DNA from: a virus
Strand: one strand, 5' to 3'
Virus record (IMG/VR): IMGVR_UViG_3300030110_005272
Span: 22,297 to 42,298 of that record
DNA: 20,002 nucleotides
Below are positions 2-20,002 of this stretch, piece after piece (the stretch's first letter is position 1; every line of letters begins with the position of its first letter). Below the pieces are notes generated by a model. The model saw nothing but the letters and a program-made list of their open reading frames with translations. It was not told the origin of the DNA and searched no databases. A program made the translations under genes and the position numbers.

Positions 2-796
2 GATAGATTAACCAGTGGCCTTGGTAGTTTTTTTGGTGGCGGTGGCAGTCAATACTCAGCAGTATCTGGCGATACCTTAAGTCAAATAGCTGCTAAAAAT
101 AATGTGACCTTAGCTCAATTAAAAGCAGCAAATCCTAACTTAGCTAGTGTTTTTGCAAATCCAAAAACTTTACAAATTGGACAAAATTTAACAATACCCG
201 GTGCCGGCGGCGGTCTTGGTAGTATGTTTCCCGGAGGATTATTTGGAGAAGACAGTTTCGCAGATAAAATACTTAACATTGATCCTAATAAAGGCACAGG
301 TCCTTTAAGTTTTCTTGGCGGCTCAGGTGGTGCTTCAAGCGGCGGTTTTGGCGGCGGTGGTATCTTAGACACAGTTCTTAAAGGTATTGTTGCTAAAAGA
401 TTACTAGACCAAGATTCTCCTAACCCAGCTGATCTTGTACCAATGGGTTTAAATGCTTTTGGTTACACACCGGCTATGACTGAAGCTTTAAAAAATGACA
501 ACTATCGTATTGCTAATTTACAGCCTGCTTTAATACAAGGACAACAATATGCAAACCTAGACCCTGAAAAAATGCCTGCCGGTACACCAATTGCTACGGC
601 TGAAGCTGGGGGAATTATGGGCCTACAAGAAGGTGGTATGATGATGAATCCTAATAGAATGGACAACAATGGTCCTGGAGATATCACCCCAGCATTTTTA
701 GAGCCGGGTGAATTTGTTATGACCAGACCAGCAACACAAGTTTTAGGCGCTAGAAATTTATATAAATTAATGAAAGACGCAGAAGGAATGGCGTAA
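2..796 (+). CDS. LysM-domain virion protein, 5' partial
   Basis: The frame is open from the left edge, so the gene starts outside the window; 264 residues are visible. A GTG at 104 lies inside the LysM domain and cannot be the true start. Bases 53-202 encode a typical LysM fold: Y-x-V-x-x-GDTLSQIA, then L-x-x-x-N-P, ending IGQNLTIPG. LysM domains bind peptidoglycan or related glycans, which suits a tail or virion protein that contacts the cell wall. A Gly/Ser-rich linker follows, then a helical segment. The C-terminus reads LQEGGMMM and later EPGEFVMTRPA, a motif style I recall from phage tail-associated proteins. No catalytic lysozyme or amidase motif is seen. The stop overlaps the next start by one base (TAATG), so translation is probably coupled. 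The LysM call is firm; the virion role is inferred from the motifs and neighbours. Confidence 0.85.
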   Translation, partial: DRLTSGLGSFFGGGGSQYSAVSGDTLSQIAAKNNVTLAQLKAANPNLASVFANPKTLQIGQNLTIPGAGGGLGSMFPGGLFGEDSFADKILNIDPNKGTGPLSFLGGSGGASSGGFGGGGILDTVLKGIVAKRLLDQDSPNPADLVPMGLNAFGYTPAMTEALKNDNYRIANLQPALIQGQQYANLDPEKMPAGTPIATAEAGGIMGLQEGGMMMNPNRMDNNGPGDITPAFLEPGEFVMTRPATQVLGARNLYKLMKDAEGMA

Positions 797-3250: not shown

Positions 3251-6200
3251 ATGGCCACTAAATATGAACAATACATGGCTGGAGAAATTACGGAAGATGA
3301 ATTTCTTTCTGCAGGAACTACTGAGGACTTAGATAGTCCTGATTTCCTTGAAGTTTTTCAACAGAGTCTAGATCAAATTCAAGCCACTGGTTATGCTGGA
3401 GTACGTGTTCTGGGAGAGACGTTTGGTAATGAAGCTTTACAAAGAATAGGTACTGAAGGAGTTATTCGTAACGAACAATCTGCGGCTAGATACGGCCGAC
3501 CAATGACTGTAGAAGATATTGAAGGTGTAGGCGATGCAGCAGACTGGCTATTTACTAATGCTATACCACAAGTTATACCTAGTATATTAGTTGGTTTACC
3601 TTTAGCTGTAGTTGGAGGTGTTGCTGGTGGCGCTGTTTTACCAGCAGCTTTAGGTACAGCTGCAACTAGAGTTGCTGTTGGTGGAGCTATTGGTTCGTTT
3701 TTACCTTCAGCTTTTTTAGGCGCTGGTGAGATAGATCGAGAAATGAAGGGAAGACTAGATGATGGTTTTCAAGACCCATTGGCAGCGTTAGGTGGCGGAG
3801 CTATTATTGGAGCTTTAGATACAGCAGCTTTAGCTTTTGGTTTGAAAGGTGTTATACCTCAACTAGCCAAGAAGATAGGGGTTGGTGATAAGTTTGGACT
3901 ACAAGCTTTTAACGATACTGTTAACTCGTTGGTAGAACGAGGTGTAACTCCAAAGGTAGCTCAAAGAGCAGTTGCTCAGGGATTAGTCGCAGCTGTTGCC
4001 GAAGGCTCAACTGAAACTACACAAGAATTTTTAACCGATCGCATAGCAGAAGCTAACACTGGGGTCTCTTCGGATGAACAAGAATTAGCTAGCACTTTAA
4101 TGAACTCTTTCTTTTTAGGAGCAGTTGGTGGCTCACCAATTGGTTTAGTGGCCGGTGGTGTACGCGCTAGAAGTTTAAAAGAAAACGTTGAAGCACAACG
4201 ACAATACAATCAAAAAGTAGAAGAAGTAGAAGCAGAAATAGACCAGTTTTCAAGGGACGAAGAATTAGAAAATTTATCGGAACAAGACCTACGAAAACTT
4301 GCTCGCACAGAGTTTGAAAATCAAAAAGATTGGTCGAAGCTATCAAAAACAGAACTTATTACTGAAATAAAAAATTCTAAAAAATCTGCCTTAATGACAG
4401 AATTTGCTAAAAATTTAGTTGAACAACAAATAGGTACAGAACAAACTAGAACAGCTTTAGAACAAGAAGAAGCAAATAGATTATTAAATGAAGTAGATGG
4501 CGCAGAAATAATACGACAAGCCGAGGCTCTTGTTGGCGGTAAAACTTATTTAGGCAAAACTGGTGGAGTTAAACAAGCTGCTCAAGACTTAGCGCAATAC
4601 AACGTTAAAAACAATTATATTTCTACTGGGCGAAGTAAGCTATTATTGTCGCCGTTAGGTTTTAGAAGAGAACTTGCTGTATTAGGAACGTTGTCTGATG
4701 ATGTATTATCGCAAACAGCTATGGATCTTTTTCCAGAAAAGTACAACGCTACTAGCGCTCCTACTGCTTTGTTAGAAGATAAACCAGGCTTAATAAAAGA
4801 GATTGCTGAAAAAAAATACAACATCGAACAGAATCAAGAACAGTTGTCTATTAATGAAAAAACTACACCAATTCGTGTTGCTGTTGGTGACAGCGGACAA
4901 CAGCAAGGCAAAGCTTCTGAACAAATAAATACTAGAAACCCTGAAAAAAGTTTAATACAAGAATTTAAAACTCTTATTAACGGCGAAAAATTTACTTTTG
5001 TAAAAGAAGCTATTGAAAGCGCTGCTGGTGATGTAGTAGGTTTTCAGTACGTTGATAAATCATCTGGTAAATCTTACGAACAAATTCAAAACGAACAAGG
5101 CCAACCGACCATAGACTTTATTGCTGGAGAAACAGAAACCGATAGCAACCCAACAATTTTTACAAGCTACACTGTGTTTAGAGGCGACATGCCTATGCTG
5201 CAAAATGATGTGCTTGGTAGTATTAAAAATATTTGGAAACGTTTCTTTTTTGCTGATGGTAATTTAGGTCAAACTGTTTTTGAATTAGATCGACAAAGAA
5301 TTGGTCGTCAAAGAGGTTTAAATAAGCTAGGCCAACAAATAGCAGAAGCGTATGAACGCGCAGCTGACACTGCTGTTTTAGAAGGCAGTGTTAAAGATAG
5401 AGCAGAAATAGATCAACTAGTAAATGATTTTTTAACTAAAGCGTATGAACCAACACCATTAAACGAAGAAGAAAGAGCAGCAAAAATTTTAGAAATAAAT
5501 GCTTTGCAAGAAGACTCTAATCGAACAATTGACGAAATTAAAAAAGGTCGATTAGCTAGAAGAATTGATATTTTACAAAATGAATTAGATGAAGGAGCTC
5601 GTATTGATGCAGTAACTTTAGAAGACTTACCTGAAAATGTTAGAAGTGTTGCTGCACAAATGCGTGAAGCCATAGACTCACTTAGTAATAGAATTTTAAA
5701 TGAACTCCCTGCAACTGTTTTAGATCAAGAAGTAAAAGTTGAGAGAGGTGGTGTAAAAGTTACTGAATTAAAAAGCGATATTATAAAAGCACAACTAGGC
5801 GCATATTTAACTAGAAGCTATAAATTATTTGATCCAAGTTTTGGTTGGAACCCTTCTAGTTTTTTTGGCAAGTTAAATAAAGATCAACAAAAAGCTTTTG
5901 ATGTAGCTGTTGAATACATGATGAAAGATAAAGATGTATCTAAAGAAGAAGCTAAAATTATGGTGGACGATATTTTAAAAAATTCGTTAGCTGAAGACAC
6001 AATAGATCCTAGTGTTGTACAAACTATAACAGGTGAACCAGTAGCTAAAGGTAAAGTATCACCAATAAATCAATTTTTAAAACAACGAGAAAAATTACCG
6101 GAAGAATTACGTGGTTTGTTTGGTGAGATAACTAATCCTTCGCAGTTAGTTGCAACTACAGTTAATCGACTAACTAGTTATGTAGAAAATTTTAATTTTT

Positions 6201-8281
6201 ATCAAAAACTTTTAGAGGCAGATAATGTGCCTGGGCAAAAATTATTTGCTACTAGTCCAACTAGAGAATTTAATACAGAGGTACCTTTACAAGATTCACC
6301 TATAGATGGTTTATTCACAACTAAAGAATTAGCTGAAGCCTTAGCTTTAAATAAACAAGATAAAAGTGGCCTCACTAAATTTTATGACATGTTCTTTTTA
6401 GTGCCTAAAGCAATAGCACAATCATTTAAAACTGTTTACAGTATCACGGCTCAAACTCGTAACGCTATAACTGCTAGCATGTTTTACTTAGGCAATGGGC
6501 ACTTAAATACTTCAGATTTTTCTGAAGCTATGAAAACTATTTACTATGAACTTTCTGGCACTGGCTTTGATAGTTCTGGGCAAAAACTTTCGCCTCGCAT
6601 ACACAGAGAAAAAATTTATAAACTGATGCAAGATTTAGGTATTGTCAACACTAGTGTACGTCTGCAAGATGTTATAGCTGTTTTTAACGAAGCAGGTTCT
6701 GGAGCTTATAGAACTTTAAATGATTTTCAAGCTTTTCTAAATAGCAAACATATCCCAGGAGTAAATAAATTTATTAAAGGCGTAACTAAAATAGGTAAAA
6801 AACCAGCAGATGTTTACCAAGCTTCGGATGATTTTTTTAAAATTGCATCTTTCTTTTCTGAAAAAAATAAACTAGCTAAAGCTTACGACAACTCAGAAGC
6901 TAGTATGCAAAGTTTAGAAAATTTTGCTAAAAGTTTAGGCAACCTAAGAATAGAAAATTTATCGCATGAAGATATGCTTAATCATATAGCTGCTTACAAA
7001 GTAAGACACACTATACCTAACTATGATTATGTTGGTAATTTTGTAAAACGGTTACGAAGGACTCCGTTTGGTAATTTTGTTGCTTTTCCAACAGAAATTA
7101 TTAGAACTTCTTTTAATATGGCTTGGTTAGCCGGCAAAGAAATTTCTTCTGGAAATCAACAACAAATGATTCAAGGTTATCGTAGATTATTGGGTTTAGG
7201 CACCATGACTGTTGGACTACCGGCTATGGCTTTAGCTTATGGTAAAGCTGAATCAGGTGTAGATGATGAAGATTTAGAAGCAGCCAGAAGAATTTTGCCT
7301 GAGTATGCTAGAAATAATTTTATTATTCCAGTTAGTAAACGTAGTGCCGAAGAAGGTGGCGGCTTTAACTTTATTGATGGTAGTCATTTATTTGTTTACG
7401 ACACCATATCTCGTATACCTTTTACAGTTTTTAACGCAATTAGAGAAGGAGAAAATATTGGTAGAGGCACACCAAGCAGTGTACTTACTGGTATAGGAGA
7501 AGCTGCTGTAGATTTAAGTTCAGCTTATTTAAGTCTTTCTATAGCTCCACAAATTTTTTTAGACATAACTCAAAATAGAAAAGAAAGCGGTGGAGCAATT
7601 TCTGTAGAAGGAGATACTTGGGGCAACCAAATAAAAGACCGATTTAATTATGCTTTTGAAAAAGCTCAACCAGGCTTTATGCAGCAATTAGGTAGAATCG
7701 CGCAAGGTGGAGAAGTAGGTGAGTTTGCTTTCGATAAGTATGGTAATAGACAAGAGTTTGACGATGCTATTTTAGGTTTAATGGGTTTAAAAGTATCAAA
7801 AGTAAACCCAACACAGTCTTTACCATTTCTTATAAGTGAGTTTAAAAAAGCGGAAGCTAATTCAAAACGATTGTTTACTAGAATTACTTATCAATCTGGA
7901 CCTGTTTCAGCGCAAGATATATTAAACGCTTACGAAAACTCACAGCGAGCGAGTTATAACGCACAACAAAATTTTTATAAAGATTATTTAGCATTACAAA
8001 AATTAGGTGTAAATAAAAGAGAGTTACGTAAACAAATAAAACAAAGAATAGGTGATAAAAAAATGAAAAATAATATTAGAAGAGGTGTGTTTACGCCATA
8101 CAAACCGCCTAAGTCTGCTAGAAGAAATTTTGAATTAGCTACTAAAAGAATGTTAAATGCAGGAGCTTCGGTGTCTCCAGATAGATACTATCCTAATAGA
8201 GAAATAATTAATTTACTTAATTTTTATAGAAGAAACAGATTAAATTTAAGTTTAGAGTTCTTTACCCCCGACGATATTTAA
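3251..8281 (+). CDS. Giant polyvalent-type internal/ejected virion protein
   Basis: A 1676-residue protein 14 bases after the previous stop, with only a weak AAAAG upstream of its ATG. Residues 106-157, 179-203 and 285-303 are Gly/Ala-rich hydrophobic stretches that could insert into a membrane. They flank an EGSTETTQE helix at 251-259. Residues 310-345 are a charged coiled coil and long helical regions follow. Around residues 1180-1340 is a segment with IPNYDYVGNF, RRTPFGNFVAFPTEIIR and a hydrophobic LGTMTVGLPAMALAYG helix, the style of the C-terminal LPD modules of phage large polyvalent proteins. The last 150 residues are basic. I see no lysozyme, protease or RNA polymerase motif. Size, hydrophobic blocks and late-gene position suggest an internal core protein ejected with the DNA, analogous in role to T7 gp15/gp16 though not recognisably homologous. 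The end overlaps the convergent nuclease gene by 30 bases. Confidence 0.8.
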   Translation: MATKYEQYMAGEITEDEFLSAGTTEDLDSPDFLEVFQQSLDQIQATGYAGVRVLGETFGNEALQRIGTEGVIRNEQSAARYGRPMTVEDIEGVGDAADWLFTNAIPQVIPSILVGLPLAVVGGVAGGAVLPAALGTAATRVAVGGAIGSFLPSAFLGAGEIDREMKGRLDDGFQDPLAALGGGAIIGALDTAALAFGLKGVIPQLAKKIGVGDKFGLQAFNDTVNSLVERGVTPKVAQRAVAQGLVAAVAEGSTETTQEFLTDRIAEANTGVSSDEQELASTLMNSFFLGAVGGSPIGLVAGGVRARSLKENVEAQRQYNQKVEEVEAEIDQFSRDEELENLSEQDLRKLARTEFENQKDWSKLSKTELITEIKNSKKSALMTEFAKNLVEQQIGTEQTRTALEQEEANRLLNEVDGAEIIRQAEALVGGKTYLGKTGGVKQAAQDLAQYNVKNNYISTGRSKLLLSPLGFRRELAVLGTLSDDVLSQTAMDLFPEKYNATSAPTALLEDKPGLIKEIAEKKYNIEQNQEQLSINEKTTPIRVAVGDSGQQQGKASEQINTRNPEKSLIQEFKTLINGEKFTFVKEAIESAAGDVVGFQYVDKSSGKSYEQIQNEQGQPTIDFIAGETETDSNPTIFTSYTVFRGDMPMLQNDVLGSIKNIWKRFFFADGNLGQTVFELDRQRIGRQRGLNKLGQQIAEAYERAADTAVLEGSVKDRAEIDQLVNDFLTKAYEPTPLNEEERAAKILEINALQEDSNRTIDEIKKGRLARRIDILQNELDEGARIDAVTLEDLPENVRSVAAQMREAIDSLSNRILNELPATVLDQEVKVERGGVKVTELKSDIIKAQLGAYLTRSYKLFDPSFGWNPSSFFGKLNKDQQKAFDVAVEYMMKDKDVSKEEAKIMVDDILKNSLAEDTIDPSVVQTITGEPVAKGKVSPINQFLKQREKLPEELRGLFGEITNPSQLVATTVNRLTSYVENFNFYQKLLEADNVPGQKLFATSPTREFNTEVPLQDSPIDGLFTTKELAEALALNKQDKSGLTKFYDMFFLVPKAIAQSFKTVYSITAQTRNAITASMFYLGNGHLNTSDFSEAMKTIYYELSGTGFDSSGQKLSPRIHREKIYKLMQDLGIVNTSVRLQDVIAVFNEAGSGAYRTLNDFQAFLNSKHIPGVNKFIKGVTKIGKKPADVYQASDDFFKIASFFSEKNKLAKAYDNSEASMQSLENFAKSLGNLRIENLSHEDMLNHIAAYKVRHTIPNYDYVGNFVKRLRRTPFGNFVAFPTEIIRTSFNMAWLAGKEISSGNQQQMIQGYRRLLGLGTMTVGLPAMALAYGKAESGVDDEDLEAARRILPEYARNNFIIPVSKRSAEEGGGFNFIDGSHLFVYDTISRIPFTVFNAIREGENIGRGTPSSVLTGIGEAAVDLSSAYLSLSIAPQIFLDITQNRKESGGAISVEGDTWGNQIKDRFNYAFEKAQPGFMQQLGRIAQGGEVGEFAFDKYGNRQEFDDAILGLMGLKVSKVNPTQSLPFLISEFKKAEANSKRLFTRITYQSGPVSAQDILNAYENSQRASYNAQQNFYKDYLALQKLGVNKRELRKQIKQRIGDKKMKNNIRRGVFTPYKPPKSARRNFELATKRMLNAGASVSPDRYYPNREIINLLNFYRRNRLNLSLEFFTPDDI

Positions 8282-12566: not shown

Positions 12567-14164
12567 TATTCCCACTCCTTATCAATAACTGGTTTCTTAA
12601 AATCTTCGGCAGTGACATGACTGTTATCTATTTCAATAACATCAAGCACCCAAATGTTTTTGTTGCCAACACTTTTATCTATCCACTTAGCTGAGTTGTT
12701 GGCACCCATCTTTTTTAGTTCATCAAATATTTCTGCTTCTCTAACTGTTTTCATACCTTTGTATTCATGTATATATTTCACTACATCACGACCTCTAAAC
12801 CACCACTGAGGCTTCTCTGCGGCCTCCTCAAAGCGAAAAGCTCCGCCCGACATGATAGCCAGCCTAGAGATAGATTCGGTGCTGACACAGAACTCCATGA
12901 TGCCTTCTTCCAACAGACCACTTTTAGTCATATCAGATGGCATATCTACTTCTTGTACGTCTTGCAGTAAAGTATTTAATCTAGCTACCCACTCTATTTT
13001 TTTAACATCTGGTGGACACGCGTTTAAAACTTCCATACATCTTTGTTGAAACATAGAAAAGTTATGTAGTTGTTTTGTTTCTAAAACAATAGTTTGTCCG
13101 TCCATATCAAGATGCCAGAGCGGTGGGTCTGTAAGGTATTTTCTCAGGCCACCAAACACGGGATCTCTTTCAGACGCATCAATCCCAAAGCGCTTAGTGA
13201 CACAGATACCACTCTGACAAAAATCTACCAACGGTGGTTGACTGCATTGATAACGATAGTCTGATTTCTCAATACTTAAAATTAATGCGGTCATTTCGCT
13301 GTGTGAAATTGGTTTAGAACAAACTTGCTTATTGACTTCGTAAAGCTTATCTTTCCATTCTTCTGTTTCTGGATATGCTTTTCTAAAGAACACACCATAA
13401 GAAAACAGTGCAGTATTACGACAACCTTCTGGGACTCCGTTTAGTTTCATGTGGACTAAACAAGGTGGGGCTTCATTCCAAATACTGTCTGTATCTTTAG
13501 CAATTAATTTTCTTCTGGATTTTTTAACTGGGACTAACTCATCTAATTTTTTTTCGCTAATAGATTTCTTTTTTACAAAGTCAATAAACTCTTCTAACGA
13601 CAAAGCATCACCACTAGCGTTTAAACCATACCGAGTAGTGTCTTCACCAGAGAAATACGGCATGTTTAACCAGTTACCGGTTTGTCTTTCTTTAGGTAGT
13701 TGTGTAGACCATTGGTATTGTTTTGGAAATATCTCATCGCCAGTGCGACCCAAAGCTGCGGCAATCTCTTCTAGTTTATTTCTAAACTTAATTGCTGGCA
13801 CAGGTTCTTCAGTGAACAAAAACAAATGCACACCGCCAGATTTTGTTGAACATGGGACCACGGGCAGACTCATATCAGCCACTGACTTAATAATCTTCTT
13901 AACATCTATTGGGTACTCGTCTATATCTATACATCCCCATTTACAGGTTTCATCATCTTTTAATGGAATCACGCCGATTGAAACTTCGCCGGCAATATGT
14001 TGCTTCCATAAATCTAAAGTTAACGGTTCTTGTAGAGTTTTACCCCGACCGTCTTTTTTAATTCCTTTGGCAGTATTTTTCTGTCCTGTTATTTCGTATA
14101 TACCATACGCTCTATCTAAGCCCGAAAATATCTCCATGAATTTTTCTTCTGTTGTTTGCGTCAT
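12566..14164 (-). CDS. Archaeo-eukaryotic-type primase (Prim-Pol)
   Basis: A 532-residue primase of the AEP superfamily. The catalytic core (about 60-190) has D80-I-D82 in WGCIDIDEYPID, S-G-G-V-H113 in STKSGGVHLFLF, the DEIFPKQ stretch at 143-149, and GNWLNMPYFSG at 163-173, which matches the G-N-x-x-x-x-P pattern of TOTE-type and phage AEPs. Residues about 235-330 resemble the C-terminal helical domain of such primases (EGCRNTALFSYGVFFR). They end in a Cys cluster, C307, C316 and C321, before TKRFGI, a likely metal site. The last 200 residues are unassigned and may contain a winged helix. There is no fused Walker-type helicase. It should make primers for the phage polymerase, perhaps with DNA-polymerase activity. 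ATG has only a weak AAAG upstream and follows a structured 105-base gap. The 3' end overlaps the helicase start by one base. Confidence 0.87.
   Translation of the reverse strand: MTQTTEEKFMEIFSGLDRAYGIYEITGQKNTAKGIKKDGRGKTLQEPLTLDLWKQHIAGEVSIGVIPLKDDETCKWGCIDIDEYPIDVKKIIKSVADMSLPVVPCSTKSGGVHLFLFTEEPVPAIKFRNKLEEIAAALGRTGDEIFPKQYQWSTQLPKERQTGNWLNMPYFSGEDTTRYGLNASGDALSLEEFIDFVKKKSISEKKLDELVPVKKSRRKLIAKDTDSIWNEAPPCLVHMKLNGVPEGCRNTALFSYGVFFRKAYPETEEWKDKLYEVNKQVCSKPISHSEMTALILSIEKSDYRYQCSQPPLVDFCQSGICVTKRFGIDASERDPVFGGLRKYLTDPPLWHLDMDGQTIVLETKQLHNFSMFQQRCMEVLNACPPDVKKIEWVARLNTLLQDVQEVDMPSDMTKSGLLEEGIMEFCVSTESISRLAIMSGGAFRFEEAAEKPQWWFRGRDVVKYIHEYKGMKTVREAEIFDELKKMGANNSAKWIDKSVGNKNIWVLDVIEIDNSHVTAEDFKKPVIDKEWE
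12575..12580 (-). promoter_or_regulatory. Ribosome binding site that sets the helicase start
   Basis: AAGGAG on the minus strand ends eight bases before GTG at 12566. The upstream in-frame GTG at 12575-12573 overlaps it and so cannot be the start it serves. The site lies within the last codons of the primase gene. Confidence 0.75.
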
Positions 14165-14183
14165 TACTTTAATTTGTTAAGGT

Positions 14184-14218
14184 GAGTGGTGACCTCGCCA
14201 TAAAAAAGACCACCACTC
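14184..14218 (-). other. Stem-loop II upstream of primase gene
   Basis: A perfect 8-base inverted repeat (GAGTGGTG/CACCACTC) on the minus strand. In RNA it extends to 11 pairs through G-U, U-G and C-G, leaving a 13-base U-rich loop. The plus-strand transcript cannot form the two wobble pairs, which favours function in the minus-strand mRNA. It ends 19 bases before the primase ATG. No U-tract follows, so it is not a standard terminator. Confidence 0.6.
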
Positions 14219-14223
14219 GGTTG

Positions 14224-14266
14224 TTTTACAAAGGCTGAAAAAAATATTAAAAAGACCTTTGTAAAA
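14224..14266 (-). other. Stem-loop I after the 259-aa gene
   Basis: A perfect 11-base inverted repeat (TTTTACAAAGG/CCTTTGTAAAA) with a 21-base U-rich loop, starting four bases after the stop codon of the 259-aa gene. On the minus strand the loop begins TCTTTTT, as does the sequence after the left arm of the neighbouring stem-loop. It has no trailing U-tract on either strand. It could protect an mRNA 3' end, weaken read-through into the primase, or bind protein. Confidence 0.6.
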
Positions 14267-14269
14267 AAT

Positions 14270-15049
14270 TTAATACAGTGCTTTCGAGTTGTCCTCTATT
14301 GCTTCTGTACTAGCACTTTTGTTTGGTAGTTGATTCATACCACCGCCTGCGCAGAATTCTGAGAAATCTTTTGCTTCGGTAAACAAGTCCGCCTCCTTAG
14401 TATTAAGTGAGCGTTCTTGTGATATTGAATACGAATACCAAGAACCACGGTCATTGGACTCTGTTTGAGTTTTGATCGTGTACCAGTGCGAGTATGAAGG
14501 TGGGGTGAAGCTGCCTTTTTCACCATCCATCTTCGTACCTTGTATCAAGGTGTTAAAGTAACGTGAGTGCTTCAATTGTGAACCAGTCATACTGATCACG
14601 CATTTCTGCGGTGTGTCATCAATCAAAACATACCCATAGTGATTAGCAGTAGTTGTTAACTGAGTTTCACCAGACGGCGTTAGCAATCTGTTTTGTGAAT
14701 CTCTGCTACAACGATTTAGTAAGTCACTATCCGCTGGATGTACCTTAACTAAACCACCACCTTTCTCACGTAATTTCCATTCCACCAAAGTTTTTTCGTA
14801 CCAGACTGGTAAGAATAATAAACCTTCTTCGCCCGACAAGACTGCGTTGGTTCCTGAAAAATAAAGATCCCCTTCCTCAGCATCTGCATTGTAATCAGGC
14901 GAGGCTTTTTGTCGCTGAGGCGACAGTGCCTGTACAATGGAGATACGCGGAGTTCGCAGATCATCTGATGTTACTTCGCCGAAGCCTTTTTCTTCGACAC
15001 CTTCAAAGAGAGCGACTAAACTCTCACCGTTTGCTTTCTTCGTTGCCAT
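14270..15049 (-). CDS. Conserved phage protein, candidate ssDNA-binding
   Basis: A 259-residue protein with ATG preceded by AGAGGAA at about 9-base spacing. The N-terminal half has a pattern I recall from proteins beside phage polymerases: D-L-R-T-P-R-I-S-I-V-Q-A-L-S-P, then D-A-E-E-G-D-L-Y, then LFLPVWYEKTLVEW and GGGLV. The middle is beta-rich (HYGYVLIDD, CVISMTGSQLKHSRYFN), which would suit an OB-like fold. The tail is acidic-polar and ends in an aromatic residue (IEDNSKALY), loosely like phage ssDNA-binding proteins whose C-terminus recruits the replisome. No enzyme motif is seen. Its place just upstream of primase, helicase and polymerase supports a replication accessory role. Two stem-loops separate it from the primase gene, which would allow higher expression of this gene. 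The ssDNA-binding role is inference; the CDS itself is firm. Confidence 0.85.
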   Translation of the reverse strand: MATKKANGESLVALFEGVEEKGFGEVTSDDLRTPRISIVQALSPQRQKASPDYNADAEEGDLYFSGTNAVLSGEEGLLFLPVWYEKTLVEWKLREKGGGLVKVHPADSDLLNRCSRDSQNRLLTPSGETQLTTTANHYGYVLIDDTPQKCVISMTGSQLKHSRYFNTLIQGTKMDGEKGSFTPPSYSHWYTIKTQTESNDRGSWYSYSISQERSLNTKEADLFTEAKDFSEFCAGGGMNQLPNKSASTEAIEDNSKALY

Positions 15050-15070
15050 ATATTCGTTCCTCTTTATTTG

Positions 15071-15640
15071 TTATTTGACAATTTTTGTTCGCTTGCCCTC
15101 GTAGACAGAGAAAAGTTCTCTAGCTTCTTGGTCAAACACCTGATTGTTCGACTCAACTTGTTCGCGTACGAACGCCTTGAGTGAACTAGGATGAACACTT
15201 TCTTTCTGGTCAGGTAATAACCCTTCCTTAATTAAAGTATTTATCACTTCTTTAGCACGCTCATCCTCGCCACGGCCAAACTGCACACTCACGACGTTCT
15301 TAATAAGATCGCCGTGACCGTTCTCTCTTAGCCAATGGTGAGCCGCATCTAATTTTTCTTTAGAGATACGGGCGCCATAATAAGGTTCTGCTGAAATACG
15401 TGAGCCATCACTTAGACGAATGTCTTGTATGCCTAGCTCTTGTAAACGCAGGGGAATAACTTCTTCTGATAAATTCTTTTCGGTTTCTTTCAACCTTTGC
15501 AAGCGGTCCTCAGCATTTCCTATCGTGCCTTGTACTCGCAATAATTTGTCACACAGTTCAGATAAACTTTTTAAATCAGTTTCTTTTAGGGACTCTACTT
15601 TTCTTTTGGTTTCTTGTTCGAATAATATTTCAATCGACAT
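15071..15640 (-). CDS. Conserved phage protein of unknown function
   Basis: A 189-residue protein with a strong GAGGAGAAG ribosome site just before ATG at 15640. Residues about 1-65 form a charged coiled coil. A compact domain follows with LRLQELGIQDIRLSDGSR, then HHWLRENGHGDLIKNVVSV, FGRGEDERA and VHPSSLKAFVREQVE, closing with a short VYEGKRTKI strand. I recall this W-L-R-x-N-G-H-G-D-L-I-K and V-x-P-x-x-L-K-A-x-V-R-E signature from many tailed phages, where it lies in early or replication clusters, but I know of no proven activity. Position between small early genes and the candidate ssDNA-binding protein, 21 bases away, suggests a DNA-metabolism role. It starts immediately after the stop of the 36-aa ORF (TAA then ATG). 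Confidence 0.83.
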   Translation of the reverse strand: MSIEILFEQETKRKVESLKETDLKSLSELCDKLLRVQGTIGNAEDRLQRLKETEKNLSEEVIPLRLQELGIQDIRLSDGSRISAEPYYGARISKEKLDAAHHWLRENGHGDLIKNVVSVQFGRGEDERAKEVINTLIKEGLLPDQKESVHPSSLKAFVREQVESNNQVFDQEARELFSVYEGKRTKIVK

Positions 15641-15751
15641 TTACTTCTCCTCTTTTTTCTTTCTTGTTTTCTTTAGTTTTTTTTGTTTTTCTTGAGCATC
15701 TAACTCCGCTTGTATTCTCCTCATCATCGCTTGGTGTTCTTTTATGTTCAC
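15641..15751 (-). CDS. Small basic helical peptide, 36 aa
   Basis: This short frame fills the gap between two genes. Its GTG shares GTGA with the stop of the 100-aa gene and its TAA directly precedes the ATG of the 189-aa gene. The product (VNIKEHQAMMRRIQAELD, then a Lys/Arg-rich tail with KKTRKKKEEK) is strongly basic in its second half and reads as one helix. The ribosome site of the next gene lies in its last codons, so it may serve mainly to keep ribosomes moving through the operon, or bind nucleic acid. A start at the ATG pair near 15727 is possible. The exact overlaps support translation, but composition alone could mislead in an A-rich stretch. Confidence 0.5.
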   Translation of the reverse strand: MNIKEHQAMMRRIQAELDAQEKQKKLKKTRKKKEEK

Positions 15752-16050
15752 GTCTTGTCTTTCGGTTTGAAAGTGATGACGTTATCTTTGTAAGTGGGTT
15801 TCTCGGCTTGACCATCAAGGTCAAAGTCTAGTTCAAAATCAATAATCTTTTCTAAAGTATCGTCGCCTTCGCAAGCAACAATATTGATTTCTTGTTTTCT
15901 GCCCAAGTCATAAAATAAATAACACAAAGTTTCATTTAAAGAAGTAAAACTTATTTCAAAACCAAGTTCATCGCGTGGCACAACATTATTGATAAGAATA
16001 CTGTAGCCAAGATCGGTCTGATATATTTTTATTTCTAGCGGTTTACTCAT
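15748..16050 (-). CDS. First gene of replication operon, unknown acidic protein
   Basis: A 100-residue protein that I do not recognise. It looks like a small alpha-beta domain: strands at LEIKIYQTDLGYSILINN, a short helix near SLNETLCYLFYDLG, another strand at EINIVACEG, then an acidic stretch (DFELDFDLDG) and a basic end. It has no signal peptide or transmembrane helix. The ATG is the first minus-strand start after the divergent region; the upstream ribosome site is weak (AAAAAG). Being promoter-proximal, it is probably expressed early and could be a host-takeover or regulatory protein, but the sequence does not show this. Confidence 0.75.
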   Translation of the reverse strand: MSKPLEIKIYQTDLGYSILINNVVPRDELGFEISFTSLNETLCYLFYDLGRKQEINIVACEGDDTLEKIIDFELDFDLDGQAEKPTYKDNVITFKPKDKT

Positions 16051-16131: not shown

Positions 16132-17580
16132 ATGAAGCTTGAGACATATCAGTTTAAAACAAAACCCTACGATCATCAATACAAAACTTTAGAGCAGAGT
16201 TATAACAAGGATAATTATGCTTTGTTTTTAGAAATGGGACTGGGTAAATCTAAAATTTTAATCGACAACATTGGGATTTTATTCCAAGCTAAAAAAATAT
16301 CCGGCGTGGTTATTGTTGCACCCAAGGGAGTTTTAGATAACTGGTCAATCAATGAAATAGAACGTCACTTACCAGACGACATAGCTCGAGAGGTATTAGT
16401 CTGGCAACCAAATCATACGCAACGTTGGACCAAGGACTTCCGCAAAATGGTTGACGAGGACAGCACTGGCACCTTAAATGTTTTTTTAGTAAACGTTGAA
16501 GCTTTTGCGACAGCCAAAGGTTGCAAATTTGTTGAAGAGTTTTTAAATACGCACGACTGTATGCTCGCAGTAGATGAATCAACTACCATTAAGAATCCAA
16601 AAGCCAAGCGCACAAAAAATCTTACTGCCTTGGCACCACTAGCAAACTATCGTCGTATCTTGACCGGTTTTCCAATTACCAAGGCACCGTTGGATTTGTA
16701 CTCACAGTGTTATTTTTTGCATCCAAATCTCTTGGGCTATAGTAGTTACTATGCTTTCAGGGCGCGCTATGCAATCATGAAGCGTCAACAAATGGGCGCT
16801 CGAGGTTTTGATCAGATCGTTGGGTTCCAGCGCTTAGATGAGCTACAAGAAGCAATTAAAAATTTTTCAATTCGTTACACCAAAGATGAGTGTTTAGATT
16901 TACCAGCCAAAACTTATAGCAAACGTTATGTTGAACTTACTAAAGAACAAAAGATAGCTTATGAACAGATGAAACAAGAAGCGGTAATGATTTTAGAAGA
17001 TGAAACTTTCTCGACCATGAACGTCTTGACTCAATTGATGCGCTTACAACAAGTAGTAGCTGGCAGTTTACGTAACGAGGCAGGAGAAACTATTTACTTA
17101 GAAAACAACAGACTACAGGCGGTATTGGATGTGCTGGCAGAGACGGATGGTAAGGTTGTGTTATTTGCTGTGTTCCGTACAGACATAGAGAGGTTAGCAG
17201 AAATGCTCCGAGAAAAATATGGAAAAAATTCGGTGGCCACATATTACGGCGAAACTCCTCAAAATGAACGTCAAAATATAATTACTCGCTTTCAGGACCC
17301 AGATAACGAGTTAAAGTATTTTATCTCAAATCCGCAGACGGGTGGTAGAGGAATCACGTTAACAGAAGCAAACGTTATAATATATTACTCAAACAGCTAT
17401 GACTTAGAGCTTAGAATTCAATCAGAAGATCGTATTCACCGTATTGGGCAAAACGATAAATGCACTTACATAGACTTAGTAGCCAAAGATACAGTGGACG
17501 AAAAGATTTTAAAGACCTTGCTAAACAAAGTGAAAATAAGTAATGAGGTATTGGGGGAAGTTAGACAATGGTTTGATTAG
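16132..17580 (+). CDS. SNF2-like superfamily 2 helicase/ATPase
   Basis: A 482-residue SF2 ATPase of the SNF2/RapA type. Motifs in order: Q-like YDHQ (13-16), Walker A EMGLGKS (34-40), motif Ia VIVAPKGVLDNW, motif II D148-E-S-T in place of DEAH or DEGH, motif III LTGFPITKAPLDLYSQ, motif IV-like VVLFAVFRTDIERL, motif V NPQTGGRGITLTEAN and motif VI QSEDRIHRIGQ (430-440). Both RecA-like lobes are complete and no extra domain is fused. Such small phage proteins are common in replication clusters. They may translocate on duplex DNA, strip bound proteins or restart forks; strand separation is not assured. The start is set by AAAGGA at 8-base spacing. It is divergent from the replication operon and is followed 15 bases later by a plus-strand ATG, though a later ATG is preferred for the next gene. 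Confidence 0.95.
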   Translation: MKLETYQFKTKPYDHQYKTLEQSYNKDNYALFLEMGLGKSKILIDNIGILFQAKKISGVVIVAPKGVLDNWSINEIERHLPDDIAREVLVWQPNHTQRWTKDFRKMVDEDSTGTLNVFLVNVEAFATAKGCKFVEEFLNTHDCMLAVDESTTIKNPKAKRTKNLTALAPLANYRRILTGFPITKAPLDLYSQCYFLHPNLLGYSSYYAFRARYAIMKRQQMGARGFDQIVGFQRLDELQEAIKNFSIRYTKDECLDLPAKTYSKRYVELTKEQKIAYEQMKQEAVMILEDETFSTMNVLTQLMRLQQVVAGSLRNEAGETIYLENNRLQAVLDVLAETDGKVVLFAVFRTDIERLAEMLREKYGKNSVATYYGETPQNERQNIITRFQDPDNELKYFISNPQTGGRGITLTEANVIIYYSNSYDLELRIQSEDRIHRIGQNDKCTYIDLVAKDTVDEKILKTLLNKVKISNEVLGEVRQWFD

Positions 17581-17589: not shown

Positions 17590-17631
17590 CAAAGGATGAA
17601 ACTATTTGTTAATTTAAAAGAAGATTTTGCT

Positions 17632-17856
17632 ATGAACGAAGGTATCGCAGAAGTTTTAGAAGAACTTAATCCAGTTTTAGAAAAAGCTTTATTAGAAAAA
17701 AGTGACACTTGGGATTTAATTACCGCTAGCATGATTCAAATTGCTACGTTGGTAGGGCGTAAAAACTTAGACAAAGACATAGTAATTACCATGCTGTGTT
17801 ACATGCTGGCTCAAACTGACGGCGTATTTGTTGATGAAGATGAAACTAGACATTAG
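17632..17856 (+). CDS. Small acidic helical protein, unknown
   Basis: A 74-residue, mostly helical protein (EGIAEVLEELNPVLEKALL, then a hydrophobic ITASMIQIATLV and IVITMLCYMLAQ), ending acidic (FVDEDE). I do not recognise the family. ATG at 17596 would give 86 residues, but its AAAGG touches the start codon and the strong TATAAT just upstream predicts transcription starting there. ATG at 17632 has AGAAG at 8-base spacing and a leader of about 36 bases, so it is preferred. Its stop lies two bases before the giant gene's start, so the two are probably co-translated. That spacing could suit a chaperone or partner of the giant protein, as for small proteins paired with ejected ones, but this is inference. 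Confidence 0.65.
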   Translation: MNEGIAEVLEELNPVLEKALLEKSDTWDLITASMIQIATLVGRKNLDKDIVITMLCYMLAQTDGVFVDEDETRH

Positions 17857-17858
17857 CT

Positions 17859-20002
17859 ATGGCCACACCAGAAGAACAAGAAAAAGATACCTCTTTCCTT
17901 AGTGCATTTTCTTATGCACTAGACCAGCCTTTAGAAAATATTGGCACAACTTTAGATGCTATGGGCTTTGAAGATGCCGGTAAGTATTTAAAAGATTTAA
18001 CTGAAGCGCCAGAAAATTATGAATCCGCGACCGAAGGTTTTTTAAACAAAAATGGTTTTTTATTTGATGTAGGGTTTTTACCTAGAGCTGTGGTAGAACA
18101 AGCCGGACAGTTAGCTGGGTCAATTGCTACTCGAGCAGGTGGAGCTTTCCTTGGTGGAGCTCTTGGTTCTGTTGGTGGACCTGGAGGTAGCGCAATCGGT
18201 GCAGTTACTGGTGCTATATTAGGACCAACTTTATTTGAATCTGCACAAATCGCTGGTCCGGTTGCTTTAGCTAGAGCCAAAGCCAATGGGCGTGACGAAC
18301 CGAACTGGGAAGATTGGTCAGGTGCTGGCGGTACCGCATTAGGCAGTGGTTTGTTAAACGCTTTTGGCGTTTATGGTATTGGTAAATTAAACAGCACGAT
18401 CTATGGTTCTGCTATACGTGAAGGTGTTACCGAAGGCTTACAAGGTTTGGGCGAACAAATAGGTAGCACGCTTTTAACTGACGCAGGTCTACAAATAGAT
18501 CCAAAAGCTGCTATTGGAGAGGCTTTAATTGGTGGTACGGTTGGTGGTATAGCGCAAACGCCGAGCAGTATTTATGCTAACACTAGACAAGAAATAGAAG
18601 CAGAAGAAGTTGGCGAAACACCGTTGTTGCCTGCACCAGTAGCCGAAGAACCAATCGTAGAAGAGCCAGTGGTAGCGGAACAACCGACCACGGACGAAGG
18701 ACCAATCATACTGCCGCCACCGCCAACTGATTACGGAAGAATGAGTGTTCGAGACGTTTTTGCTAACGCTCAAGATAAAGCATTGGAAAGCAATAGAGAT
18801 ATATTTATAGCGGGGCGTTCTGTGCCTCGTTTAGAAGAAGAATTTTTGGCTTTAGACTCTGGTCTTAATATTTATCCATACGCTGATGTCATGGAAACTA
18901 TAACTAAAAACTTAGACCAATATGGGTATTCGGAAGATATGAATTTAAAAGAGCTTGCTGACTTTACTAAATTAAAATTGCAAGATACATACGATGCTAA
19001 GTTTATGGAAAGTTTTGATGCGTACGTTAATGAACCAGAAAAAATAGAAGAATACATAGAAAATTTAAGAAATCGTTTTTCACCAGAAGAAGAGTTTGAT
19101 GTTGAAGATTTAACTCCCAATGAAATAGCTGAAGTCAGAGAAAACTTTCGAATGTATTTCGATGACCACCGAGGTGAAGTTGAAGATGTTATAAAAAAAT
19201 CAGGACTTCGTGATGAAGATGGAAATTTTGTAAACATAGATACTTATATTAATACACGAATAGAAGACGAATTAGAAAGCGCGTTACGAGACAAACAAAC
19301 AAGATTACAAGGTGAGTTAAAGTTTGTGAAAGCTGACAAAAGATTTTTAAACCCAGACTATAGAAAATTAAATTACACTCCAGGCATTACACCATCTATT
19401 TTATTAGCTAACGAAGAGGCCATACGTTTACAAGACAACATAGAAACTTTAGGTGGAGGCGATTTACTGGCGGATCTACAAATTGATCCTAACTTTGCTA
19501 GTGTCAGTGTGGTGCGTAATGCTATTAAAAATATGCCTGCAGAAGACAAAGCTATTAATTACTACAACGAACTTACTACTGGTAATGCTAAAGAAGATAA
19601 ATTAGCTCAACAAGAAATGGAAGACTCTGAGTTGGACAAATTTTTAAAATTAAAAGGCGAAGAAAAAATTTCTGTGTCTGAAATAGATAGCTTTATGGAA
19701 GGCTACATGGCAGGCACAGTAGTCGAGTCTGTGCCTATAGCGCATGGTAGCATAGGTTTAAACCACGACGCTAAAAACAAAGGCTTTGAATTAAATCATA
19801 CTTACCTACCTAGACTAAACCCTAAACAAGAAGAAAAAATAAAAAATGTTCAAGAAAGTATAGAAGGAGTAGGAATACTTGATCGAATGGAGCAAGAGGA
19901 CATACTCAGCGACATTAGTCGTTCTACTTACGCTAATGCAGAAAGTCACTTTACCAGTAAATATGGTGAACCTTTATTTTGGGTGCGTGGGTCAAGCGGA
20001 AC
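17859..20002 (+). CDS. Second giant polyvalent-type protein, 3' partial
   Basis: The frame is open from ATG at 17859 to the right edge: 714 residues and no stop. The N-terminus parallels the 1676-aa protein. A short helix (SAFSYALDQPLENIG) is followed by a Gly/Ala-rich hydrophobic block at 80-135, an EGVTEGLQGLGEQ helix at 188-200 and a second Gly-rich hydrophobic stretch at 216-232. An acidic, Pro-rich linker lies at 245-290, then long charged helices. Residues about 549-620 (NMP at 558-560, then a D-S-E-L-D-K-F-L and K-I-S-V-S-E-I-D-S-F pattern) match a helical module I recall from phage large polyvalent proteins. The visible end, GEPLFWVRG at 703-711, looks like the start of the following module. 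It is probably packaged and ejected, or acts early; it lies beside an SNF2 ATPase rather than in the structural block. The ribosome site is weak. Confidence 0.82.
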   Translation, partial: MATPEEQEKDTSFLSAFSYALDQPLENIGTTLDAMGFEDAGKYLKDLTEAPENYESATEGFLNKNGFLFDVGFLPRAVVEQAGQLAGSIATRAGGAFLGGALGSVGGPGGSAIGAVTGAILGPTLFESAQIAGPVALARAKANGRDEPNWEDWSGAGGTALGSGLLNAFGVYGIGKLNSTIYGSAIREGVTEGLQGLGEQIGSTLLTDAGLQIDPKAAIGEALIGGTVGGIAQTPSSIYANTRQEIEAEEVGETPLLPAPVAEEPIVEEPVVAEQPTTDEGPIILPPPPTDYGRMSVRDVFANAQDKALESNRDIFIAGRSVPRLEEEFLALDSGLNIYPYADVMETITKNLDQYGYSEDMNLKELADFTKLKLQDTYDAKFMESFDAYVNEPEKIEEYIENLRNRFSPEEEFDVEDLTPNEIAEVRENFRMYFDDHRGEVEDVIKKSGLRDEDGNFVNIDTYINTRIEDELESALRDKQTRLQGELKFVKADKRFLNPDYRKLNYTPGITPSILLANEEAIRLQDNIETLGGGDLLADLQIDPNFASVSVVRNAIKNMPAEDKAINYYNELTTGNAKEDKLAQQEMEDSELDKFLKLKGEEKISVSEIDSFMEGYMAGTVVESVPIAHGSIGLNHDAKNKGFELNHTYLPRLNPKQEEKIKNVQESIEGVGILDRMEQEDILSDISRSTYANAESHFTSKYGEPLFWVRGSSG

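Follow-up and report, generated by a model that had tools for sequence, protein, structure and literature searches.

A giant gene at the right end of the window

The window analysed here, 20,002 bp in all, is the right end (22297-42298) of a linear 42,298-bp IMG/VR virus contig (IMGVR_UViG_3300030110_005272), a marine phage fragment. Its last gene, the subject of this study, encodes the first 714 residues of a giant protein that we place in a family named here for the amino acid motif EIQSD. The frame runs rightward from 17859 to 20000 on the plus strand and lacks a 3' stop because the right edge of the window is also the end of the contig; the 714-codon frame proposed in an initial annotation of this DNA is real, with its 3' end open. 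In relatives, the full-length protein has 1283-1399 amino acids (aa).

Two genes precede it in the same tightly packed rightward cluster, one for an SNF2 ATPase (16132-17580, plus strand) and one for an 86-aa protein to which no function is assigned (17596-17856, plus strand) and whose stop codon lies 2 bases 5' of the giant gene's ATG; the replication genes to the left of this cluster are oriented leftward. The earlier identification of the neighbour as an SNF2 ATPase was borne out by Pfam matches to SNF2-rel_dom (7.8e-27) and Helicase_C (7.4e-18). Searches of Pfam, PHROGs and NCBIfam with the window protein and/or its relatives gave no domain assignment, and tblastn searches with the window protein and a full-length relative (L004) against 50,697 phages returned chance-level matches to one phage only.

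The EIQSD motif past the edge and the regions before it

The last readable residues of the giant protein (696-714; 19944-20000, plus strand) form the segment SHFTSKYGEPLFWVRGSSG. According to the initial annotation, in large polyvalent phage proteins such a segment follows a helical module and is itself followed by a motif of the form E-E-I-Q-S-D-x-x-Q, which it expected within about 40 residues of the edge. We read the continuation past 20002 from relatives, and not from this phage itself: five loci (L004-L008) were found first and a sixth (L135) later. L004, L005 and L006 are ~85-88% identical to the window protein, and L008 and L135 are 50-60% identical. Full lengths are 1283 aa (L004), 1291 aa (L005) and 1399 aa (L008); L006 and L007 are partial at the 5' side, and L007 is identical to L004 over the part they share.

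We found that all six relatives are open through the position equivalent to the edge, their frames reading straight through without an early stop. In each, SHF...GxPLFWVRGxSG is followed by I(H/A)EIQ(N/S)DY(V/A/H)Q, so that the motif takes the form HEIQNDYVQ or AEIQSDYHQ, with N in place of S in the 1283-aa group. Counted from the position that aligns with the final glycine of the window protein, the motif starts at +18 (L004, L008) or +27 (L005, L006), inside the expected distance. These sites were scored with a position-specific scoring matrix of the canonical 16-residue EIQSD block and tested against 300 shuffles. The relatives' motifs reached 14-22 bits, whereas the maximum in shuffled sequences averaged about -4; none of the 300 shuffles attained the motif's score for four relatives, and about 1 in 300 did so for L006. 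The same matrix found no such site in the window protein, which ends before the motif, or in a 1676-aa protein encoded elsewhere in the window (3251-8281).

The helical module, previously claimed at residues 549-620, was confirmed at residues 550-612 (19506-19694, plus strand). Here we used a profile of 72 columns, built up from canonical EIQSD proteins, in most of which it is found upstream of the motif (112 domain hits). In the window protein this profile scored 11.3 bits, compared with 6.3 for the best of 500 shuffles (0/500 reaching the observed score) and -1.2 for the reversed sequence; it had no match in the 1676-aa protein. The proposed order of helical module, SHF...EPLFWVRG and E-I-Q-S-D-x-x-Q held up, as did the motif forecast past the edge and the parsing of the gene product as a large polyvalent-type phage protein.

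The N-terminal part (residues 1-246; 17859-18596, plus strand) contains Gly/Ala-rich hydrophobic segments, and the initial annotation held that it repeats the N-terminal plan of the 1676-aa protein. This view stood only for the order of features: the two share an arrangement of Gly/Ala-rich hydrophobic segments and an EG(V/S)TE..Q stretch, and shuffled Smith-Waterman comparisons of the N-termini gave z values of 2.0-4.3. Homology is not established, as BLASTP between the two N-termini found nothing and hhalign gave 5%. In searches for phrog_6958 ('virion structural protein'), the 1676-aa protein matched at 6e-24 and L004 at 0.0038, and the window protein had no listed hit. A common N-terminal plan is therefore suggestive only. 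As a separate observation, residues ~843-1653 of the 1676-aa protein are related to annotated structural proteins of the Pelagibacter phage HTVC027P and of Cellulophaga phages. Phage 023Pt_psg01 has a related hypothetical protein, and a Pseudoalteromonas phage has one that is annotated as an ADP-ribosyltransferase.

Families and predicted fold of the EIQSD domain

Viral contigs were scanned for DNA encoding EIQSDWHQ and, separately, EIQSDYxQ, and each scan returned at least 120 rows, nearly all with the same domain plan. This plan, called canonical here and read from the first scan, is as follows: GGxNYRExLLxLP, an insertion, SHFxEPNxLAHxRxxDR, (I/V)EEIQSDWHQxGRxxGY, a further insertion, PDAPFKxxWxELxxKRxLxxAAxNGYDxIAxTxG, GGxGMxGFYDxxLPxxxxKxxKKxG and ITPxM. 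The second scan yielded mostly a marine family of ~750 aa (L143-L262) with the canonical plan. Comparison of the two families by hhalign gave 98.6% and 96.6% for the two halves of the domain, which firmly establishes their homology. The mark of the superfamily is E-I/M-Q-S-D-(W/Y)-x-Q, which closes a hydrophobic strand and is preceded by SH(F/W/Y)...P...R, and it is present in all relatives of the window protein that reach this region. Outside the selected motif, residues E15, H79, W136 and Y255 are conserved in the canonical alignment.

The motif region of the window's family resembles both the canonical EIQSD and the marine EIQSDY domains (hhalign 91-94%; in one pair of comparisons, 91% with the canonical and 93% with the marine domain). 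In its C-terminal part, the elements SHF, EIQ(S/N)D, PF..Y..G..VAV and GG.YD occur in canonical order. Profile scores are weak for the second half, which in canonical proteins comprises a PF..W..L..K...G.D.IA block, an FYD helix and the last strands; the PF and glycine of the PF block stand at the canonical gapless spacing (PFTESYVRKGVLSTIIDALKKGDRYVAVP). The relatives also carry ~400 extra residues after the motif. From these comparisons we regard the window's family as a divergent EIQSD member whose second half is not proven by sequence. Like the window's family, the marine EIQSDY family has EIQSDY followed by R-N/D-P-like residues and lies among packaging genes; it differs in being shorter, in that a helical-module hit is not established, and in that its second half aligns only weakly with that of the window's family. 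A mixed alignment of the two was dropped and was not used for structure prediction, because MAFFT put the second half in a different register. A weak match to packaging protein FI in the relatives spans no more than 24 residues (L004 ~1003-1026; PHROG E 3e-4 to 1e-3).

AlphaFold2 modelled a canonical domain (the 325-aa domain of L094, 63 alignment rows) with a predicted local distance difference test score (pLDDT) of 88.9 and a predicted template-modelling score of 0.78. A Foldseek search of the PDB with this model listed 50 matches, almost every one of them with the GNAT fold, among them NatD, SSAT, AtaT, KacT and GCN5; the ICL2 entries carry a GNAT-like C-terminal domain. The best matches in BFVD were other giant phage proteins, several of them named for LPD, ART-PolyVal, LT_GEWL or gp88 domains, and viral acyltransferases came next. 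When PDB sequences were searched with a profile of this domain, nothing meaningful came up. The structure comparisons moderately support a GNAT-like fold for the canonical domain, most likely that of an acyltransferase, with the EIQSD strand at the position of GNAT beta-4. The domain resembles GNAT acetyltransferases in its predicted model, but it has low template-modelling (TM) scores, long insertions and no clear coenzyme A pyrophosphate loop.

Among the proteins tested, no Pfam or NCBIfam model recognised the canonical domain. The Pfam LPD-family match that the initial annotation suggested was accordingly not found, as no Pfam model found covers this domain; the domain is uncatalogued in these libraries and may be among those of the 40 LPDs of Iyer et al. 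(2017, PMC5512222) that did not enter Pfam. PHROG 7348, labelled endolysin, does recognise it. Also, EIQSD domains occur in giant genes named 'lysin' in Nostoc phage Nsp-JY18 and Microcystis phage Mel-JY33. For the EIQSD part, such labels may be misleading. A literature search by the motif letters returned nothing relevant.

Other giant EIQSD proteins carry further recognised domains: ART-PolyVal (four stretches), ddrB-ParB and LPD38 in L085; AAA_34/Helicase_C_4 and LPD38 in L094; LPD39 in L048; ART-PolyVal in L050; and ResIII/helicase in L112. The best stretches of these companions lie away from the EIQSD motif. Companion domains of this kind have been described for phage polyvalent proteins (Iyer et al. 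2017, PMC5512222), which the window protein resembles as a giant multidomain phage protein in a packaging or virion gene context. Unlike them, it has no recognised catalogued enzymatic domain, since only the helical module and the EIQSD domain are recognised in its family; disparate activities in one chain are seen instead in other EIQSD proteins. One scan of a genome collection found 65 EIQSD loci; their contigs, mostly metagenome bins, are attributed to numerous bacterial phyla and to two archaea, and some may be contaminants. The domain is widespread, yet the Pfam and NCBIfam searches gave no model for it.

A putative ejected virion protein and competing explanations

Gene contexts bear on the role of the protein. 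The cultured Pelagibacter phage HTVC028P encodes a 954-aa hypothetical protein, gp34, in which the helical module (72 bits) precedes the EIQSD domain (145 bits), as in the window's family; it was missed by the exact motif pattern because its motif reads EMQSDLLQ. Its gene is flanked on one side by 'putative internal protein A' and gp35, and on the other by 'putative internal virion protein' and the tail fibre. Like the window protein, gp34 is a large marine podovirus-type protein, but the two show no detectable overall similarity by tblastn, the domain of gp34 is compact where the window's relatives carry their insertion, and its gene lies in an internal-virion block whereas the window gene lies beside SNF2. 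The marine EIQSDY genes lie between those for the terminase large subunit and the portal, and in L004 the window-type gene is followed downstream by one for a terminase small subunit in the same orientation. The position of EIQSD genes among packaging and internal-virion genes supports packaging and ejection, and the giant protein probably has such a virion or ejection role.

We therefore consider somewhat better than even (about 0.55) the probability that the gene encodes a giant internal virion protein of polyvalent type, which is packaged and ejected and ends in a GNAT-like EIQSD domain. Such a protein would travel in the phage head and leave it along with the DNA. Its Gly/Ala-rich hydrophobic N-terminal part would probably serve packaging or membrane passage. 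Behind this part would come linkers of low complexity or helical character, then the helical module and, from near the window edge, the EIQSD domain at the C-terminus. Once inside the newly infected cell, that domain would act on its target, by acyl transfer if the GNAT-like fold is right. With the EIQSD strand as beta-4 of such a fold, the simplest mechanism would be that the domain acylates a target of the host (or of the phage) immediately upon entry; catalytic activity and the identity of the target are weakly supported. More tentatively, EIQSD might represent a very widespread family of GNAT-like acyltransferases, so far without a name, which are carried in phage capsids and injected. If so, it would parallel injected ADP-ribosyltransferases such as T4 Alt, with protein acylation as its activity. 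With a predicted fold, gene contexts and HTVC028P gp34 as a representative in culture, EIQSD function becomes testable, and knowing it would aid the annotation of many giant phage proteins that are now called 'hypothetical', or in some cases 'lysin' or 'endolysin'.

Several observations weigh against this interpretation. The window sequence ends before the motif, leaving only the SHF...EP...R half readable there, and the giant gene stands beside SNF2 and not with the contig's main tail genes. The Foldseek matches to GNATs have probabilities of up to 0.92, with E values of only ~1e-3 and TM-scores of up to ~0.35, and inspection by eye shows no obvious pyrophosphate loop of the GNAT kind. For the window's family, hhalign gave only 1-13% for the second half against the canonical and marine domains, although the unconstrained best alignments land on the corresponding FYD-helix/strand region, and second-half block scores, including that of the PF block, do not exceed shuffles. 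Finally, the AlphaFold model of L004 616-1283, built from seven rows, is poor (pLDDT 39.9) and for this reason was not taken to a fold search.

The main rival accepts a packaged or ejected structural protein and takes the EIQSD domain to descend from a GNAT but to have lost catalysis and to serve binding or assembly, as in a portal- or DNA-associated head protein. The position of the marine genes between terminase and portal would suit such a role, as would the lack of a visually recognisable pyrophosphate loop and, in the window's group, the change from S to N in the motif together with the insertion of ~400 residues. However, the four conserved residues E15, H79, W136 and Y255 resemble an active site, and the EIQSD domain is accompanied in other proteins by effector domains, ART-PolyVal among them; we consider this explanation unlikely, if the strongest of the competitors.

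Less probable still is that the motif is common to these proteins while the rest of the C-terminus in the window's family has another fold, by local convergence or as a fragment, so that no full EIQSD domain is present. The weak second-half profile comparisons and the different register chosen by MAFFT point this way. Nevertheless, the helical module lies upstream in the expected order, and the four sequence elements keep their canonical order. In addition, the final ~130 residues of the poor L004 model (local pLDDT ~60-75 in the better blocks) run helix-strand-helix-strand-strand-helix, the same order as in the canonical second half.

The initial annotation's alternative, that FWVRG is the first strand of an ADP-ribosyltransferase (ART)-like domain, draws on those five letters and on the frequency of ART domains in polyvalent proteins (PMC5512222), and is very improbable: up to an E value of 5, four relatives had no match to ART-PolyVal (PF18760), a domain for which this library does report distinct stretches elsewhere in other EIQSD proteins, and the 50 PDB matches listed for the canonical fold include GNATs and no ARTs.

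Other features were seen at the left edge of the window and at further loci. At that edge, a short run of unknown bases (L003 ~2287-2298, translated as XXXX) separates the LysM-like 264-aa frame at window 2-796 from a 164-aa frame; the two frames may form one gene across an assembly gap. In the tail-gene block of L002, a 304-aa protein (12842-13756) with a signal-peptide-like start and a long Asn/Thr low-complexity stretch adjoins an acidic 675-aa protein (13737-15764), also with a signal-peptide-like start; both are unusual in a phage. A 229-aa protein of L003 (1088-1777) resembles 2OG-Fe(II) oxygenases by eye, and annotated 2OG-Fe(II) oxygenases lie near tail genes in HTVC027P, 023Pt_psg01 and DSL-LC04.
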